Below are positions 7,623-33,903 of a stretch of 64,000 nt of DNA, one piece after another. The notes beneath the pieces are model-generated. The model ran no database searches. It had not been told where the DNA came from and saw only the letters and a list, made by a program, of their open reading frames with translations. This DNA is from Candidatus Methylacidiphilales bacterium (lineage in GTDB: Bacteria; Verrucomicrobiota; Verrucomicrobiia; Methylacidiphilales; CAZTYG01). The stretch spans positions 1 through 64,000 of the forward strand of contig JANRJG010000040.1 of assembly GCA_033875315.1 (NCBI GenBank). The letters run 5' to 3'. How positions within the stretch are numbered: the stretch's first letter is position 1; every line of letters starts with the position of its first letter. The translations under genes and the position numbers were made by a program.

Positions 7623-8667
7623 ATGTCCATGAACCCGAGGGTGCGGCTGGTAGACGTCGCGCGCCAAGCCGGCGTGAGCCTGGCCGCTGCCAGCATGGCC
7701 TTGCACGAGCCACCGCGGGGCATCTCCGCAGCAACGGCCGCTAAGGTCAGAACGGCCGCCAAGACACTGGGCTACGTGCCCGACTCGGCCGCACGCGCAC
7801 TCTCGATACAGTCTTCAGTCCAAAGGACCCCCTTCCGTGGGACAGTAGCCTACCTCATCAACCATAGCGGCCATGCTGGACGGCTGACCATCGAAGCCCA
7901 GACATCAGACCACCCCGAGGGATCCAATCTCAAATCACATCTCCGCGAACTGGGCTATCATATGGAGGGATATGTCCTTCCCGGGACCCAAAAAGAGGCC
8001 GACCAGCTCGCACGCATCCTTTATCAAAAAGGAACCGTTGAACTTCTCGTCGATTTCTACAACTGGCACTACGAGATCCGGTTCCCTTGGGAGGACTACG
8101 CGGTGGTCGCATCCTCGCCCCACCCTTTGCAGGCACGATTCGATTCGGTCATCGCCCATTCGTACAGCGATGTCATCCTTGCTGTCCGCGAATGCCGGCG
8201 GAGATCCTACAACAGGATCGGCCTTGCCGTTTCCTCAAAATGGTTCCCTGATTGGAAAATGGGGTTTGCTTACGCATCTGAGTGTTTCGGTGGCACTCTG
8301 GCCGACAAACCTCTTTTCTTGGATGACTGGAACATCGACCAATTTCTCCGTTGGTATGACAAGGCCAAGCCCGACGCTGTCATCGCCAATGAGGGATCGA
8401 GACTGCCCGAAGATCTTGCCGCCCGGGGCATCCATGTCTCTGAGGATCTCGGCTATTGCTGCCTGCATGTGCCCCCCCACCGGCAACGGCCTGACCGGGA
8501 TTCTTCAGAAGAACGATGAGGCCGATCGTCAAGCAGTCGCACTCCTCCACAACTCCGTGCTCTCCGGCCGTAAAGGCACAACCCTCACACCGATCCGTGT
8601 CGAGGTGATTGGCCAGTGGCACGAGGGGTCCACCATGCGCCCGGCCCCGGCTGAAGCGCTTCAGTAA
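7623..8667 (+). pseudogene. LacI-family regulator interrupted by a frameshift at a C7 tract
   Basis: The N-terminal helix-turn-helix is intact (VRLVDVARQAGVSLAAASMA) and the ligand-binding domain runs to DLGYCCLHVPP. At a run of seven C (8472-8478) the frame shifts: the first frame stops at 8519, while the missing C-terminus (GLTGILQKNDEADRQAVALL to the end) continues one base later, to 8667. Removing one C restores a 348-residue protein that aligns end to end with the LacI protein at 23098 (LGYCCLHV, LTGIYQ, WHEGETLRP). It may be a true mutation, a phase-variable tract or a homopolymer error in the assembly. A PEP-CTERM gene follows after 45 bp. Confidence 0.85.
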
Positions 8668-8712
8668 TCAACCACGTTGCCGCCATAGCTTGGTCCGCTT
8701 TAGCGTCGATGC

Positions 8713-9522
8713 ATGAGAGCCATTCATCGCTGCATTAAAGCCTTTTCTCTTGTTGTTGCCCTTGCGGCCCTGCCACAAGCCGGTCGTGCACAAATCCTCG
8801 TGAATGTGGATTTCAATGTCGGCAACACGGTCACTTTTATGGATAAGCTCGGCGGCTCTGCAGCCAGCCCCGCTCCCGGGTCCGGCGCCTACTGGAATGG
8901 GGTCAGCGTCACCGGCGGAACCCAATTTTCGCCGGGCTCTTACACCAGCAACGGCACCCTGCTGGCATCTGATGGGGTCACCGCCACTTCTGTCGGATTT
9001 TCCCTGACCTTCAGCGGTGCCTATCAGGAAATGCGCTTCCCGGGCAATGCCAATTACACCACATCCTTGCTCGATGACTATGCCTATGCCACAGGGACAC
9101 AGACCTTTACGTTGACTGGTCTCGCCGCCAACACGCAGTACGACCTCTATGTCTTCGGGATCAATACACAATACGGTAGCGACCGCACCACGTTCAGTGC
9201 GAACTCCACCTACTCGGGAAGCGGGATTGGTGTCGCCAAAACCATCATCAATGCTGGCAACAACACATCCTTCGTGCTCGGTCAGACATACAACGCATTC
9301 ACCTATGCGACGTCCAGTTCGCTGAAAAGCGACGGCAGCGGCACCATTGTTCTTTCGTGGTACAATGACGGAGCTAGCGAGGGAGCGTTCAATGGCTTTC
9401 AGCTGAGCGCCAGCCCGGTTCCCGAACCAAGTGCCTACGCCATGCTTGGCTTGGGTATTTTATTCTGCGCTGTGGTGACCCGTCGCCGTCGTAAAGACCA
9501 TACATCCCCTTGTGGCATTTGA
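8713..9522 (+). CDS. PEP-CTERM sorting-domain secreted protein
   Basis: 269 aa. N-terminal signal peptide (hydrophobic AFSLVVALAALPQAGRA), a Gly/Ser/Thr-rich beta-type middle with no enzyme motif I recognise, and a C-terminal sorting signal: VPEPSAYAML, a hydrophobic helix and RRRRK. Such proteins are exported, cleaved by an exosortase/archaeosortase-type enzyme (none in this window) and kept at the surface or in extracellular polymer. It sits 45 bp downstream of the frameshifted LacI gene. The middle segment LTGLAANTQYDLYVFG resembles LQNLTPGQSYDLYFYS in the PEP-CTERM protein at 24232, so the two are probably related. Function unknown. Confidence 0.9.
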   Translation: MRAIHRCIKAFSLVVALAALPQAGRAQILVNVDFNVGNTVTFMDKLGGSAASPAPGSGAYWNGVSVTGGTQFSPGSYTSNGTLLASDGVTATSVGFSLTFSGAYQEMRFPGNANYTTSLLDDYAYATGTQTFTLTGLAANTQYDLYVFGINTQYGSDRTTFSANSTYSGSGIGVAKTIINAGNNTSFVLGQTYNAFTYATSSSLKSDGSGTIVLSWYNDGASEGAFNGFQLSASPVPEPSAYAMLGLGILFCAVVTRRRRKDHTSPCGI

Positions 9523-23097: not shown

Positions 23098-24123
23098 GTG
23101 AAACCACGCATCCGATTGATTGATGTGGCCCGGGCGTCCGGTGTCAGTGTATCCACTGCGAGCACCGCGCTCCATGGCAGTGGCCGGGGTGTGGCCGTGT
23201 CCACGTTGGAACGGGTGCGCCAGGTGGCGCGGGATTTGGGTTACGTCCCCGATCCCATCGGTCGGGCCTTGGTCAAACAGGCACCCGCGTCGTCCGGGAT
23301 TTTCCGCGGCACGGTGGCCCTGTTGGTCCATGACCGGACAGACAAAGGGCGCCAGTATCTGGACTGGCACACCTCCAGACTTGCGGGACGGCAGAACCTG
23401 CGACATTTATTGGCGGAAGAGGGCTACCAGTTGGAGGCCTTCATCCTGCCCGCGGAACAGAAGGCCCTCACCGCCCTGGCTCGTGTCCTCCGGGCCCGTG
23501 GCATCTGTGGCTTGCTGGTGGAATTGAACAACACCCTCTTCGAGTTGGAGTTTCCTTGGGACGATTACCCCGTAGCGGCCCTGTCCCGTCATCCCTTGGA
23601 GCGGGAATTTCCCTCGGTCATCAGCCACACCGCCCAAGACGCCATCCTCTGTTGGAAGCAATGCCACGACCGGGGGTATCAAAAAATCGGGTTGGTGATT
23701 GAGCCCCGCTGGTTTGCCTCCTGGCAGCATGGCTTTGAAGTGGCGGTGGAAGCCTATGGCGGGGGATTCAAAAACAACATCCTGCGCGTGGAGGAATGGG
23801 ATGAGTCGATTTTCATGAAGTGGCTGGACCGGGTGCAGCCCGATGTGGTCATGGCCAACGAGGGATTTCACTTGGTGCGCGCGCTGGCCGCGCGGGGAAT
23901 CTCCGTGCCGCAAGACCTGGGCTACTGCTGCCTGCATGTTCGCGAGGGCTTCGAAACCCTGACTGGCATTTACCAACGCGAAACCGAATCCAGCCGCCGG
24001 GTGGTGGAATTGCTCCACCAGCAGATCCAGGCGGGTGAAACCTGGCGCACCAGCTCCCAGCTGAATATAGACGTCATGGGCCTCTGGCACGAGGGCGAAA
24101 CCCTGCGCCCACTCAAAAAGTAA
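23098..24123 (+). CDS. LacI-family transcriptional regulator
   Basis: 341 aa with a GTG start. Helix-turn-helix at the N-terminus (IRLIDVARASGVSVSTASTA) and a ligand-binding domain ending in WHEGETLRPLKK. It is the intact paralogue of the frameshifted gene at 7623; both share FRGTVA, the DLGYCCLHV block and the same C-terminus. Immediately downstream are a 16-bp perfect palindrome and a PEP-CTERM gene, the likely target. Confidence 0.93.
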   Translation: MKPRIRLIDVARASGVSVSTASTALHGSGRGVAVSTLERVRQVARDLGYVPDPIGRALVKQAPASSGIFRGTVALLVHDRTDKGRQYLDWHTSRLAGRQNLRHLLAEEGYQLEAFILPAEQKALTALARVLRARGICGLLVELNNTLFELEFPWDDYPVAALSRHPLEREFPSVISHTAQDAILCWKQCHDRGYQKIGLVIEPRWFASWQHGFEVAVEAYGGGFKNNILRVEEWDESIFMKWLDRVQPDVVMANEGFHLVRALAARGISVPQDLGYCCLHVREGFETLTGIYQRETESSRRVVELLHQQIQAGETWRTSSQLNIDVMGLWHEGETLRPLKK

Positions 24124-24168
24124 GGCCCAGTTCCGGGGAAGATGGGAGGAATGACCCTCTACCGGCTT

Positions 24169-24184
24169 TCCGAAACGTTTCGGA
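24169..24184. promoter_or_regulatory. 16-bp perfect palindrome, candidate LacI operator
   Basis: TCCGAAACGTTTCGGA is a perfect palindrome with a central CG, the form typical of LacI-family operators. It lies between the LacI gene (ends 24123) and the ATG of the PEP-CTERM gene (24232), so it is well placed to control the latter. Confidence 0.7.
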
Positions 24185-24231
24185 TATCGTCATGGTTGCT
24201 AATTTTGGAAGCCCAAGCCATTAGTCCTTCC

Positions 24232-24936
24232 ATGAGAGAAAACTTCCTACGCCGTGTCTCGCTGTTGGTTTTGTCCATGATCTTGATGGGGGCGGGGCTG
24301 ACCCGGCTCCAAGGAGCGATCATCAACATCGACTTCAATGCCTACTCCGCCTCCACCAACAGCTTTCCGGGTGGGGTAGAAAATTATACCGGGCAGGGTG
24401 CGGTCTCCGATCCCGGGAACAACGGCTGGAACTATTTTTTGATCAATGGACTGGCCACTCCGGCCACGCTCACCGACCTCACGACCTCGACGGGGGCGGG
24501 CACGGGGATCAGCCTGACGGTCAATGCAGCCAGTGCCTACAATGAGGGCTATTCCAACGATCTCTTCCAGGAATACATCATCGCGGCTGGTGGCGGAAGC
24601 AGTTGGACCTTGCAGAATCTCACTCCCGGGCAATCGTATGACCTCTACTTTTATTCCCAGCCCGCGCAGTATTCCGGCTCGGCGAGCTTTACTGTCGGCG
24701 CGAATACGGTGAACGTCAATTCCGTCAGCAACAACACCGGTTTCAATCTAGGTACTAGTTACAATACCCTCACGGCGGTGGCGGATGGTACCGGCCAAAT
24801 CACCGGAAGTTATACCGGAAACTGGAATGGTCTGACCATTGCCACCATTCCCGAGCCGGGCACTTATGTTTTGCTCGCAGCGGGGTTGGTAGGAGTGTTC
24901 GTGCTACGCCGTCGGCTCAAGGCAACAGCGGCCTGA
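24232..24936 (+). CDS. PEP-CTERM sorting-domain secreted protein
   Basis: 234 aa. Signal peptide (LRRVSLLVLSMILMGAG), an Asn/Ser/Thr-rich beta body and the sorting tail TIPEPGTYVLLAAG, hydrophobic helix and RRRLK. I start at the ATG at 24232; the frame stays open upstream to 24142, but that part is not signal-like and covers the palindrome. Probably related to the PEP-CTERM protein at 8713. It sits between LacI genes. Function unknown beyond surface sorting. Confidence 0.9.
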   Translation: MRENFLRRVSLLVLSMILMGAGLTRLQGAIINIDFNAYSASTNSFPGGVENYTGQGAVSDPGNNGWNYFLINGLATPATLTDLTTSTGAGTGISLTVNAASAYNEGYSNDLFQEYIIAAGGGSSWTLQNLTPGQSYDLYFYSQPAQYSGSASFTVGANTVNVNSVSNNTGFNLGTSYNTLTAVADGTGQITGSYTGNWNGLTIATIPEPGTYVLLAAGLVGVFVLRRRLKATAA

Positions 24937-25472: not shown

Positions 25473-26174
25473 TTATCCCGCAGAACGTCGAAGGCTGCGC
25501 CGACGCAGGACAACCAACACCGCCCCACCCAGGGTTAGCAGCGCCCAGGTGCTGGGTTCGGGAACCGCCACAAAGCGCACTTCCGAAGCCCCGCGGATGT
25601 AAAACTCCGGGTTGTCCCCCGCGTAGGAAGAAATGTTTTCAAAACGCACATGGGTCACGCCGGTCAGGTTGGTCCCTGACAAGGTGGTGTAGATCCCCGT
25701 GTAGGTAGAGACGCCGGGGGCTTGGGGTAAATTGGCGGAAGTGAGGGTGATTCCGGTGGAGTTGAAATTCACGCCGTCGGTGGAGGTGGAAATGGAGAAA
25801 CCATTGAAACTGCGGACCGTATAGCCGGTTTCATTGTATTGCCAGAGGTTGAAGCCCTGCAGGGTGTAGGCTCCCCCCAGGGTGAAGGTCATGGAGTTGG
25901 TGCCATTGGGATAAAATGCAGAGATCCAGGCATCGCCGCCACCGCCGGTGCTGTGGGTGCTCCACGTGCCGGTATAGGCGTCACCCGTATTCATCGCAGC
26001 CGAAAGCCCGCTGCCATCGATGATGTTGACCAGAGATCCCCCGGCCGTGCCCAGACCGGTTTCGCTGACTGCAGTGGGCCGGACGATGATCTGGGCCGAT
26101 GCCGTGCCGAGCATGGCCAGCAGGACTATGGCTGAGACGAGGGATTTCAGGGGGATTGTTTCGAGGTTTTTCAT
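25473..26174 (-). CDS. PEP-CTERM sorting-domain secreted protein
   Basis: 233 aa. Signal peptide (LKSLVSAIVLLAMLGTASA), then a discoidin-like beta-sandwich pattern (FTLGGAYTLQGFNLWQYNET; GVTHVRFENISSY), which suggests carbohydrate or surface binding, and the tail VPEPSTWALLTLGG, hydrophobic helix and RRRSLRR. Divergent from the LacI gene at 26248, separated by 73 bp. The binding role is inferred from fold-like features only. Confidence 0.9.
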   Translation of the reverse strand: MKNLETIPLKSLVSAIVLLAMLGTASAQIIVRPTAVSETGLGTAGGSLVNIIDGSGLSAAMNTGDAYTGTWSTHSTGGGGDAWISAFYPNGTNSMTFTLGGAYTLQGFNLWQYNETGYTVRSFNGFSISTSTDGVNFNSTGITLTSANLPQAPGVSTYTGIYTTLSGTNLTGVTHVRFENISSYAGDNPEFYIRGASEVRFVAVPEPSTWALLTLGGAVLVVLRRRSLRRSAG

Positions 26175-26243: not shown

Positions 26244-26259
26244 ATTCATGCGCATGAAT
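26244..26259. promoter_or_regulatory. 16-bp perfect palindrome over the LacI start
   Basis: ATTCATGCGCATGAAT is a perfect palindrome with a central CG and covers two possible ATG codons (26248, 26254) of the LacI gene. It resembles the element at 30401, also at a LacI start. Probable autoregulatory operator that could also control the divergent PEP-CTERM gene. Confidence 0.6.
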
Positions 26260-27348
26260 CAGGCTGGGCGCCGGCACCAGCCTCTGATAAATTCAGGGGA
26301 TGAGGATTCTGGATCAAGCATGAGCCGGCCGCTGCAGACGGAGGTTGCGGCGAGACTGGGCATGAGCCAGTCCACGGTTTCCCTGGCATTGCGGGGGAGT
26401 CCCCGTTTGCCTTTAGGAACCCGGAAGCGGGTGGAAGAGGCGGCCCGCAGCCTGGGCTACCAGCCGGATCCGATGGCCGCGGCACTTGCCCGCCACCGCC
26501 ACGATTCGAGTCCCCATGGATACCTCGGTCACATGGCCATGATTTCCTCCTCTCCAATGCGCCTCCGGATGGTGCCATCACCGAACAAAGACAGCTTCCG
26601 TGAGTTTGACTTCATGACCCAGCAGGCCGCCCGCCGGGGTTACCAACTGGAGAGAGTCTGCATTGGCACCGACTCCGGGGAGCAAAAGAAGTGGTCCCGC
26701 CAGCTGTCCGCCCGCGGGTTCATGGGCTTGTTCCTCGTCGAGGGGGAAACGCCGGCAGAGTCCTGGGCCATCGATTGGGATCATTTTTGCGTCGTCGACA
26801 TTGATGGCTTGGCCGGTTCGCGTTTGTTCCCCTCTGTCTTCAGCCACCACTTCCAATCGATGATGGAAGTCATGCGGCAATTGAAACTCCGGGGTTACCG
26901 TCGTCCGGGTCTGTGGTTGGATGAATTGTATAATCAAGTCGAGGCATGGGATTCGTGGAGAGGTGCTTTTGCCGTCAAATCACCCGAGTATTTCGGAACC
27001 GCATTGATGCAGACCGATCCGGAAGAATCGCTGAATGTCTGGTTACGAAAGCACAAGCCGGATGTGGTCATTACGTTCGGAGACGGGTTTCAATCGGCCC
27101 GTTGGCAGGAAAAGGGATATCACCTGCCCAAGCGGGTCGGTTTGTGCGGACTCGATGTGGATCCTCAAAGAAACCCACAAGTTTCCGGTATCTATCAGGA
27201 CAAGCAACGCGAGGTCCTGGCCGCCCTGCAATTGATGGAAAGTCTGATCCGCAACCGTAGTCGTGGATGCCAGCCCCTCGTCGCGGGAACCTGCCTGATG
27301 GGGGAATGGCAGGAAGGGACAACCCTTCGGCCAGCGCGTTCTACGTGA
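26248..27348 (+). CDS. LacI-family transcriptional regulator
   Basis: Up to 366 aa. The DNA-binding part is LQTEVAARLGMSQSTVSLAL, with hinge YQPDPMAAALARHR, then a sugar-sensing domain (GYHLPKRVGLCGLD) and a C-terminal WQEGTTLRP motif shared with the LacI protein at 23098. Start options are ATG 26248 (GAGAGGG about 10 bases before it), 26254 or 26320 (first residues of the conserved domain). A 16-bp palindrome overlaps the first two. Divergent from a PEP-CTERM gene and upstream of the GH36 gene. Confidence 0.92.
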   Translation: MRMNQAGRRHQPLINSGDEDSGSSMSRPLQTEVAARLGMSQSTVSLALRGSPRLPLGTRKRVEEAARSLGYQPDPMAAALARHRHDSSPHGYLGHMAMISSSPMRLRMVPSPNKDSFREFDFMTQQAARRGYQLERVCIGTDSGEQKKWSRQLSARGFMGLFLVEGETPAESWAIDWDHFCVVDIDGLAGSRLFPSVFSHHFQSMMEVMRQLKLRGYRRPGLWLDELYNQVEAWDSWRGAFAVKSPEYFGTALMQTDPEESLNVWLRKHKPDVVITFGDGFQSARWQEKGYHLPKRVGLCGLDVDPQRNPQVSGIYQDKQREVLAALQLMESLIRNRSRGCQPLVAGTCLMGEWQEGTTLRPARST

Positions 27349-29360: not shown

Positions 29361-30405
29361 GTGAGGGTTCGTTTTTTTTATGCGGGCGGATCGTCCGGCC
29401 GGGAAAAAAGACGGATGAGACGAGGACGCGCAGTTGGGTATCGGGCAGGCCACGCTCACCCCGGAGGATGGCGGAGGTCAGGAGATCAATGGCCGCCGCG
29501 CCGATTTTTACTTCCTGTTGTCTGAGCCCCGAAGCCTCCGGGCCGATCAGCCGGGCGAGGGTCCAGACCACGCCCAGGTCTTGGGGAACCCGCCATCCTG
29601 CGTTTTTCAATATCGGTCGGACATCGGTGTAATTGCACACCAGGACATCTGGCCTGAATCGCGCAAGCCACGAAAGAAAGGCGGATTCCTCGAAGGCGCT
29701 GTCCGTCTCAAAGCAGATGAGCTGGTTTGGGTTGGCAAGTTTCAAATTCCTGGTCTGGGAAATAAATCCGGCACTCCAGGCCTGGCGCACGCGCCGGTCG
29801 TGCTCTTCGATTACCAGCATGCCCGGTCGTTGGTATCCAATACGGTGCAAACATTGGATCATTTCACGCATGGATTCATACTGGGCGTTGTGGACCAGGT
29901 GGACTTTCGGGTCCCTAACCGTGGGGCTGATGCCGACCACGGTAAACCATTCCCATTCCAGGCGCACCGGATCACAACCATCGGGCAGAGGGGCAATGAG
30001 CACACCCTGGATGCCGCGGTCTCGCAGGATTTTGCTCAGGCGCAAGGGCGTGAGGCCAGGTTCATGGAGCCAGAAATCTTCCAGTCGGTAGCCCAGCTCG
30101 GCGCAGCGTCGGGCCGCCCCGAGTCGTTCCTGGTCAAAAAGCTGTGAGGCCTTTCCGCGTGTGGGATAGGCATCCAACCAGGCGATGACCCCGTGGAACT
30201 TGGGGGGTCTTTTTTTGAGACGATAGGCCGTCAGGGCCTGCAGGACGGGATCGGGCGTGTAGCCCATCTGGCGGGCTTTTTGGTTGATGCGATTGCGGGT
30301 GGCCACCGGGAGGCCGGGATGGTGGTTGAGCGCCCGGGCCACGGTGGTTCGGTGCACTCCCAACTCACGGGCGATGTCGACAAGCGTGACACGTTCAAGA
30401 CTCAT
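29284..30405 (-). CDS. LacI-family transcriptional regulator
   Basis: About 373 aa from the ATG at 30405. Helix-turn-helix VTLVDIARELGVHRTTVARA, hinge YTPDPVLQALTAYR, then a ligand domain (RGIQGVLIAPLPDG; RFRPDVLVCNYTD). Paralogue of the LacI protein at 16417. A GTG at 30429 and an ATG at 30411 are other starts; both ATG codons lie inside an operator-like palindrome. The C-terminal tail is about 25 residues longer than expected and overlaps the GH36 gene on the other strand. Divergent from a PEP-CTERM gene. Confidence 0.92.
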   Translation of the reverse strand: MSLERVTLVDIARELGVHRTTVARALNHHPGLPVATRNRINQKARQMGYTPDPVLQALTAYRLKKRPPKFHGVIAWLDAYPTRGKASQLFDQERLGAARRCAELGYRLEDFWLHEPGLTPLRLSKILRDRGIQGVLIAPLPDGCDPVRLEWEWFTVVGISPTVRDPKVHLVHNAQYESMREMIQCLHRIGYQRPGMLVIEEHDRRVRQAWSAGFISQTRNLKLANPNQLICFETDSAFEESAFLSWLARFRPDVLVCNYTDVRPILKNAGWRVPQDLGVVWTLARLIGPEASGLRQQEVKIGAAAIDLLTSAILRGERGLPDTQLRVLVSSVFFPGRTIRPHKKNEPSLKPGSTARHRAGQSSARAAKKQSPH

Positions 30406-30414
30406 GCACATGAG
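30401..30414. promoter_or_regulatory. Near-palindrome over the LacI start
   Basis: CTCATGCACATGAG has two 6-bp inverted arms (CTCATG and CATGAG) around a central CA. It overlaps the start codon of the LacI gene at 29284-30405 and resembles ATTCATGCGCATGAAT at 26244. Probable autoregulatory site, also in the promoter zone of the divergent PEP-CTERM gene. Confidence 0.5.
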
Positions 30415-32193: not shown

Positions 32194-32395
32194 GGTTTAT
32201 GACCAATTTGAGCAGGATATGAAGGAATACAATCGAATAGAATGGTTTCGACTCAGCCATGTCTCACGATATAGACAATGAACTATTATTGTGCCTCTTG
32301 GGAACCCCCAGGGTGATCCGGTCCATGAAGAATCTGAAGCAAGCCTGTCAGGCTCCGGCCCGCCGTGCCCGCGGCGGGAGAAAGGGACTCGCGGT

Positions 32396-33433
32396 ATGAC
32401 CGCACCGGGCCGTCCCCCCGCCACTTGGCGGGGCTTCAATCTTTGTGAGATGTTCCTCGTGGAGCACGATCCCCGCTGGCAGGAGATGACACCCTCGGGC
32501 CGGGGAAAGTTTTTCCGCGAGGATTTTTGTTGGATCGCTGATTTTGGATTCAACTACGTGAGGTTGCCCCTCTGTTATCATTGGTGGGGCGACCCCAAGC
32601 ATCCAAAGACCCTGCGGGAGGAAGCCCTCGAGCCGGTGGATCGGGCGGTGGAATGGGCGGCCGAAAATGGATTGGACCTTTCGATCAATTTTCACCATGT
32701 GCCGGGGTTTTGTGTCAACCAAGGCCTGCGGGACGAGCATCTGCCGCCGGAACCTTGGGACCTTTGGACCCATCCCGAGGGTGCGGAGGTCCTTGCGCAT
32801 CATTGGGAGACCTTTGCCCGCCGCTATGCCGCAGCCGGACCGTATTTGTCCTTCAACATTCTGAACGAGCCGGCGCGATGCTCCCGTTCCGATCATGAGC
32901 GGGTGATCCGCCGGGCGGTCCAGGCCATCCGTCACGTCGATGCGGATCGCAGGATCGTCGTGGAAGGATTCAATGTCGGGGCGGATCCCTGTCCCGAGCT
33001 CTCCGACCTGGGGTGTATTCAAAGTTGCCGGGGCTATTGGCCGGGAGAAATCACCCATCACAGACTCTGGTGGTCATGGGCATCGGATGCACCGGTTCCG
33101 GAATGGCCCGACCCCGGGCGCTCCAGCGGGGACGGCACGTTCACCCGTGAGGGTTTGGACCAGCGGTATACCGCGTGGAAGGCCTTTGCCCGGCAGGGTC
33201 ACGCGGTGATTTGCGGGGAGTTGGGTTGCTCACATTTGCTTCCCCACCCGGTGGCGCTCCGTTGGCTGGAGGACGAACTCGACGTCTTGAACGCCGCCGG
33301 ATTCGGTTGGTGTTTGTGGAATTTCCGGGGCTCCTTCGGCATCATCGATTCGGGCCGTGAGGACGTCCCATACGCGGACTTTCACGGTCACCGGCTTGAC
33401 ACGGCGTTTTTGGAGATCCTGAAACGGCATTAA
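32396..33433 (+). CDS. GH5-type endoglycanase (cellulase family)
   Basis: 345 aa, TIM barrel of glycoside hydrolase family 5. Motifs in order: WRGFNLCEMF, FGFNYVRLPLCYHWW, LDLSINFHHVPG, FNILNEP with Glu158 as acid/base, and VICGELGC with Glu275 as nucleophile. No signal peptide from the chosen ATG (32396); the frame is open upstream to 32291, but that segment looks non-coding. Acts on beta-linked glucan, mannan or a derived oligosaccharide. Divergent from an AraC gene. Confidence 0.88.
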   Translation: MTAPGRPPATWRGFNLCEMFLVEHDPRWQEMTPSGRGKFFREDFCWIADFGFNYVRLPLCYHWWGDPKHPKTLREEALEPVDRAVEWAAENGLDLSINFHHVPGFCVNQGLRDEHLPPEPWDLWTHPEGAEVLAHHWETFARRYAAAGPYLSFNILNEPARCSRSDHERVIRRAVQAIRHVDADRRIVVEGFNVGADPCPELSDLGCIQSCRGYWPGEITHHRLWWSWASDAPVPEWPDPGRSSGDGTFTREGLDQRYTAWKAFARQGHAVICGELGCSHLLPHPVALRWLEDELDVLNAAGFGWCLWNFRGSFGIIDSGREDVPYADFHGHRLDTAFLEILKRH

Positions 33434-33456: not shown

Positions 33457-33903
33457 ATGGCTGAGCGATCACCCACCTCCTTGCGTCTGAGCGACATCGA
33501 CTCGGTTGCCGGACTTTCAACCAGCGGGGTGTCGTGCGCATAGAACAATGATCCCACGATGTCGATCCAGACCCGGAAGCGTGCCCAGGATTTGGCGAAA
33601 AAAATATGTTATCACCCCAACGCTGCCGCCAGATCGCTGCACGAATCCGGCACCTCCCGCCGCCCGCCCATGTTTCACGGCAAACTGGCCTACATCCTCT
33701 CGCCCCACGAGGATCTGCAGATGCGGCAGCGGGGCGGACAAGAGACCTACCCCTGGCATGCCGATATTTCCCTACGCCCTACAGAAAGACATCGGATTCA
33801 ATCCTCGAATAGAAGTGCGGTTGCCTCCGTAGGTCGGCAGAAGGCCGTTGCACACCAGCTGGAAGATGAAGGGCGGATCCTCCTGGGGGTCATTCTGATG
33901 TAA
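33457..33903 (+). pseudogene. Decayed LacI-family regulator with an in-frame TAG
   Basis: From the ATG at 33457 the frame reads SLRLSDIDSVAGLSTSG, the LacI helix-turn-helix, then TAG (33541-33543) at a position where relatives have Leu, and resumes in the same frame with NNDPTMSIQTRKRAQDLAKK and YHPNAAARSL. After about 140 residues homology fades through a frameshift (near DISLRPTERH), with later traces such as GRQKAVAHQLEDEG, and the ligand domain is missing. At least three lesions make it a pseudogene. It lies between the GH5 and ADP-ribosylglycohydrolase genes. Confidence 0.85.

Follow-up and report, generated by a model that had tools for sequence, protein, structure and literature searches.

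The analysis covered a window of 64,000 nucleotides, the whole stretch of DNA presented here. The segment of interest within this window carries a gene for a LacI-family regulator, followed in the same orientation by a gene for a PEP-CTERM surface protein, with a palindromic sequence in the interval between the two:

23098-24123, + strand: LacI-family regulator gene, 341 aa, GTG start; Pfam PF00356 and PF13377, hinge Leu58 present
24169-24184, no strand: candidate operator TCCGAAACGTTTCGGA, a perfect 16-bp palindrome, CG-centred
24200-24205, + strand: possible extended −10 element TGC-TAATTT (from 24197), weak, identified by eye
24232-24936, + strand: PEP-CTERM surface-protein gene, 234 aa; PF07589 and TIGR02595, signal-peptide-like N-terminus by eye

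Pfam agrees with the first-pass annotation on the identity of both genes (23098-24123 and 24232-24936). The 23098 protein scored 43.2 bits against PF00356 (cut-off 27) and 34.7 bits against PF13377 (Peripla_BP_3; cut-off 26.5); the 24232 protein scored 27.4 bits against PF07589 (cut-off 20.7) and 24.1 bits against TIGR02595 (cut-off 16). Exosortase (PF09721) was found above cut-off at four loci in the genome (five matches, two within one gene), as expected for PEP-CTERM sorting. The C-terminal PEP-CTERM domain of the 24232 protein and the presence of exosortase in the genome together mark this protein as a PEP-CTERM/exosortase substrate. A single-sequence structure model of the protein was too poor (mean pLDDT 46.1). 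A Gfo/Idh/MocA-type oxidoreductase gene lies directly upstream, and the window also contains glycoside hydrolase-like genes and a total of seven LacI HTH matches. One of the seven, at 33487-33621 behind gene 32291-33433, is in a broken frame (26.5 bits, one internal TAG).

The sequence and coordinates of the perfect 16-bp palindrome with its central CG, as well as its spacing of 45 bp from the LacI stop (24123) and 47 bp to the PEP-CTERM ATG (24232), were all borne out as first annotated. The center of TCCGAAACGTTTCGGA lies 55.5 bp from the ATG and its near edge 48 bp from it. The PEP-CTERM reading frame is open from 24124 and includes an ATG at 24142; hence, the gap 24124-24231 is not free of open frames, and translation from 24142 would make the palindrome part of the coding sequence. 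The signal-peptide-like N-terminus at 24232 and the closure of the corresponding frame before 8704 in a paralogous unit (see below) speak for 24232 as the likely start. If the TGC-TAATTT sequence at 24197-24205 is an extended −10 element, the palindrome would cover the −35 region; a sigma-70 scan did not include this sequence among its promoters. No copy of the palindrome was found near the start of the LacI gene 23098, and there is thus no sign of autoregulation. Exact searching of the 3.15-Mb assembly for TCCGAAACGTTTCGGA, a check proposed with the first-pass annotation, returned a single copy, and the sequence remained single in the window even at up to three mismatches.

In all searches, the nearest relative of the 23098 LacI was encoded in the same window, at 7629-8474 (E 4e-80; runner-up 1e-33). 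This relative belongs to a second LacI/PEP-CTERM unit with the same layout:

7623-8519, + strand: paralogous LacI gene, product 45% identical over 282 aa to the 23098 LacI
8651-8664, no strand: paralogous candidate operator CTGAAGCGCTTCAG, a perfect 14-bp CG-centred palindrome
8713-9522, + strand: paralogous PEP-CTERM gene; TIGR02595 24.6 bits, PF07589 29.6 bits

In this assembly the paralogous LacI gene is frame-broken close to a stretch of seven Cs (8472-8478); similar sequence continues in another frame up to a stop at 8667 (assessed by eye). The C7 run is compatible with an assembly error, a real loss or slippage. CTGAAGCGCTTCAG overlaps the final codons of this second LacI frame, which, like the broken frame, counts against the operator reading. 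The 8713 and 24232 PEP-CTERM proteins are 28% identical over 261 aligned positions (blastp E 8e-11 in a set of eight proteins).

Ungapped anchoring of the two units on their ATG codons causes the palindromes at 24169 and 8651 to superpose, with the center at −55.5 in each. Coincidence would produce the same exact offset with a probability of about 8e-5, if the two are independent (five such palindromes in 64,000 positions). Identity between the units amounts to 10/14 in the palindrome, as compared to 18/47 in the 47 bp on its 3′ side and 16/47 in the 47 bp on its 5′ side. Over 16 bp the identity is 10/16, the eighth base pair of the dyad not being kept in the paralogue. The four differences within the 14 bp form two mirrored pairs, at half-site positions 2 and 6. 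One pair (A-to-G with T-to-C) adjoins the central CG; the other (C-to-T with G-to-A) affects position 6. Symmetry has thus been kept through change, which goes beyond shared ancestry alone, as the latter would keep bases only. Judging from the two sequences, the gene pair was most likely duplicated, with the second copy (7623-9522) retaining the layout while both operator and regulator were altered.

Camas 2010 (PMC2978694) links position 6 of the LacI half-site to residue AA-20 of the regulator, position 2 to the hinge residue AA-55 and then to AA-15 and AA-5, and the central CG to the hinge leucine AA-54. This leucine is present in both LacI proteins, in the 23098 protein within YVPDPIGRALV. 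The 23098 protein and its paralogue differ at AA-55 (V and S) and at AA-20 (T and M). Thus, the operator changes, at positions 2 and 6, affect the same two positions whose linked residues have changed. Residues AA-15/16 differ as well (VS and LA), while the bases usually linked to them, at positions 5 and 4, are unchanged. This argues against a simple code, and the Camas code for positions 5 and 4 leaves the GA of both units unexplained. The code is possibly inapplicable here, since neither LacI belongs to the TVSR set (TAST and AASM). Inspection by eye of the candidate palindromes at other LacI genes of the same genome showed no clear agreement with the link between an arginine at AA-20 and a G at position 6.

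Even palindromic motifs are reported for 1251 of 1303 LacI-family regulators, with a central CG in 1173, and over 75% of the sites lie within 140-30 bp upstream of the start (Ravcheev 2014, PMC4052901). TCCGAAACGTTTCGGA agrees with these operators in length parity, CG center and distance: it is an even palindrome within the 16-22 bp range and lies 30-140 bp ahead of the start codon. The paralogous unit, with its identical center-to-ATG distance and mirrored substitutions, and this published anatomy of LacI operators both lend independent support to the proposal of the first-pass annotation that the PEP-CTERM gene is controlled by the LacI encoded next to it. We infer, as the best reading of the sequence, that TCCGAAACGTTTCGGA is a probable local operator of the PEP-CTERM gene, and have good though not full confidence that it serves the adjacent LacI, which most likely represses this gene until released by a sugar.

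Alternatively, the operator might belong to another regulator, either a different LacI-family member or a Cra-like global one, with the neighbouring LacI controlling something else. The genome has 18 LacI HTH domains to choose from, and the core of the palindrome, GAAACGTTTC, also occurs within the consensus site for Cra (PMC11157272, Table 1). The 23098 LacI itself was rejected as a Cra protein (NF008452, 28.7 bits against a cut-off of 385). A global regulator should have more sites, but CYGAARCGYTTCRG occurs exactly at only three places in the genome: the 24169 site, the 8651 site and one within a short-chain dehydrogenase gene. At up to one mismatch, CYGAARCGYTTCRG was found at 8 genomic places and a reversed control pattern at 12; since the control matches more often, sites of this type do not represent an enriched regulon motif. 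The other six CYGAARCGYTTCRG places all fall within open frames, five of which have a Pfam family (L151 being without); for two of the places (L153 and L155) the Pfam match lies elsewhere in the same frame. By the same stop-to-stop criterion, the two candidate sites fall in open frames as well: 24169 within the PEP-CTERM frame as extended upstream, and 8651 where the second LacI frame ends. Open frames are easy to come by in the local DNA. Around 118 LacI genes from gathered loci, CG-centred palindromes with 6/7 pairs were not enriched (0.31/kb upstream and 0.30/kb downstream, versus 0.59/kb in coding sequence), which counts against our own reading of the site; at 7/7 pairs the same genes yielded 2 upstream, 3 downstream and 3 coding, counts too small to judge. 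K-mer enrichment did not find a shared operator motif. In the paralogous unit both operator and regulator changed, at positions linked in the literature, which also speaks against a regulator other than the neighbouring LacI. Altogether, we consider ownership by another regulator unlikely.

Still less probable is that the palindrome arose by chance and has no function. Its length by itself is no evidence of a role, as the observed counts of perfect even palindromes are close to those in first- to third-order Markov simulations of the 64-kb window: two of at least 16 bp were observed (1.3-1.4 expected), and five of at least 14 bp (5.2-5.7 expected). The five, which start at 8651, 24169, 26244, 46918 and 55994, are all CG-centred. 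Two of them (46918 and 55994) sit within long ORFs. The remaining three (8651, 24169 and 26244) lie in LacI/PEP-CTERM gaps, which make up 720 bp of the window; only 0.06 would be expected there, although this is a post hoc count. Such clustering argues against chance, as do the identical offset and the mirrored changes in the paralogous unit. The comparison with other genomes favours chance: CG-centred palindromes with at least 6/7 pairs were found in none of their 12 LacI/PEP-CTERM gaps. The full set of 19 gaps (2,005 bp), in which start codons and pairing were assigned by script and may be mis-set for L059 and L082 (convergent or divergent in two passes), contained four such palindromes, all in the genome under study (4/7 gaps) and three of them perfect. 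The same 19 gaps contained two GC-centred palindromes (one sequence in two genomes) and one AT-centred palindrome.

The third gap palindrome of the window is associated with a divergent gene pair:

26244-26259, no strand: perfect 16-bp CG-centred palindrome ATTCATGCGCATGAAT, between a PEP-CTERM gene (25473-26174, − strand) and a LacI gene (+ strand)

The likely start of the LacI gene downstream of ATTCATGCGCATGAAT is at 26320 (+ strand); the first ATG of its frame, 26248, is inside the palindrome. ATTCATGCGCATGAAT is likely the operator of this adjoining PEP-CTERM/LacI pair. A further sequence, CTCATGCACATGAG, occurs at 30401-30414 in the gap of another divergent LacI/PEP-CTERM pair (29284/30464). 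Its center is CA rather than CG, and it has TCATGCRCATGA in common with the 26244 palindrome. Elsewhere in the genome, a near-perfect CG-centred palindrome, TAGTCTACGTAGACTG, is found at the start of another LacI gene (L036, 2367-3365, − strand), where it is a possible autoregulatory site.

The weakest alternative, that the palindrome acts as an RNA hairpin ending or tuning a LacI-PEP-CTERM transcript, is highly improbable: a 6-bp stem closed by a 4-nt loop is possible at the RNA level, but a terminator or attenuator was ruled out by the missing U run after the palindrome, by a terminator scan that was empty there and by folding scores no better, or hardly better, than those of shuffled sequences (z 0.57 for the 108-nt gap, −0.86 for a 41-nt piece and 0.57 for the paralogous 51 nt), and one of the two mirrored changes falls in the loop, where pairing is unneeded.

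We therefore return to TCCGAAACGTTTCGGA as the probable operator of the adjacent LacI. In the mechanism that we infer, a LacI dimer would contact each half-site, TCCGAAAC, through one of its recognition helices and insert its hinge leucine into the central CG. Bound 55 bp ahead of the PEP-CTERM start codon, probably over the −35 region, it would most likely block transcription. A sugar or sugar derivative bound by the Peripla_BP_3 domain would free the LacI protein from the DNA, and the surface protein would be made when the sugar is present. The LacI protein may instead activate the PEP-CTERM gene; Cra activates at some promoters. Should local control by the neighbouring LacI be true, the DNA-binding domain of the 23098 LacI should favour CCGAAACGTTTCGG and that of the 7623 LacI CTGAAGCGCTTCAG. 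PEP-CTERM proteins are numerous at the surface and their role is mostly unassigned. A LacI operator before such a gene predicts sugar-dependent production, which would provide a clue to the purpose of the protein. The duplicated unit, in turn, offers a natural test case, on a small scale, of joint change in a LacI protein and its operator.

The proximity of LacI and PEP-CTERM genes was analyzed beyond this locus. Of the 18 LacI HTH domains of the genome, eight, including one broken remnant, have a PEP-CTERM domain no more than 2.5 kb away, as compared to 0.6 for random placement; 22 PEP-CTERM domains were above cut-off, and none of 20,000 random placements reached eight. Inside the window the corresponding figure is 6/7, against 2.3 expected (58 of 20,000 trials). 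For 23 of the 118 LacI genes in the gathered loci, a PEP-CTERM frame lies no farther than 700 bp away, and 15 of these pairs are divergent. In four relatives, selected after inspection from 10 genomes, 14 of the 62 LacI genes among the matches listed are within 2.5 kb of a PEP-CTERM domain, with about 2.4 expected. Genome G024 yielded 31 LacI matches and none for PEP-CTERM at E 0.001. In the genome under study and in the relatives, LacI-PEP-CTERM adjacency exceeds random placement and is mostly divergent.

Searching 62 genomes of the order revealed no orthologue of the 23098 LacI; the sole outside match at E 1e-30 was a 33%-identical family member. In 384 genomes sampled from the class, the best five candidates of each among the matches listed included none at 1e-40 outside the genome under study. 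Given that no orthologue was found, there is no cross-species footprint of the palindrome. A search of genome contigs yielded one distant locus (L043), 36% identical in its best segment (residues 1-69), which was set aside. A broader reading for the order is that several sugar-sensing LacI proteins each govern one exosortase-sorted surface protein of their own; every such gene pair would form an independent unit, the units would multiply by duplication, and regulator and operator would diverge in concert. We put this forward tentatively, as a generalization that is somewhat less likely to hold than to fail; if true, it would mean sugar-responsive regulation of PEP-CTERM proteins.

Regulators of PEP-CTERM genes have been described in other bacteria. 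Proteobacterial PEP-CTERM genes are under sigma-54/PrsK-PrsR control (Haft 2006, PMC1569441; pepA, PMC9850573), and the table of Haft 2006 (PMC1569441) has no PrsK/PrsR/PrsT for Verrucomicrobium spinosum. These systems resemble the present one in having a dedicated regulatory site upstream of the PEP-CTERM gene. The sigma-54 signature GG-N10-GC is absent from the gap 24124-24231, and the best response-regulator match to PrsR in the genome (427.8 bits) falls below the cut-off of 502.6. On these grounds, sigma-54/PrsR control of gene 24232 was rejected. In the paralogous stretch 8600-8712, two GG-N10-GC sequences, at 8625 and 8627, occur ahead of the palindrome. In the papers covered by the literature search, no LacI regulators were tied to PEP-CTERM genes: the "LacI" text matches in PMC12078418 correspond to Lacipirellula, and the main text of PMC10957091 does not contain LacI as a whole word. 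The latter paper describes Zur control of zepA, a PEP-CTERM gene, through palindromic sites; these occur in several phyla, and Luteolibacter of the PVC superphylum is among the bacteria concerned. The Zur/zepA system (PMC10957091) is alike in that a PEP-CTERM gene near a repressor gene has a palindromic site in its promoter region; it is unlike in that Zur is a zinc sensor of the FUR family, not a LacI protein, and its target a zinc-uptake protein.

The Cra/FruR operator of E. coli (PMC11157272, Table 1) shares the GAAACGTTTC core and is the site of a LacI-family protein, but differs in its flanking bases, and here there is a single site and no regulon. The closest likeness is to the local LacI operators of Ravcheev 2014 (PMC4052901), which are also even, CG-centred, located 30-140 bp from a start codon and beside the regulator gene. 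The present locus differs from these systems in having no site ahead of the regulator gene 23098, autoregulation being reported for 72% of the LacI-family regulators in that study, and in its adjacent target, a PEP-CTERM protein, whereas 176 of the 182 groups with assigned pathways in Ravcheev 2014 (PMC4052901) serve carbohydrate metabolism. It is a familiar kind of switch, a local LacI-family operator, on a less usual target.
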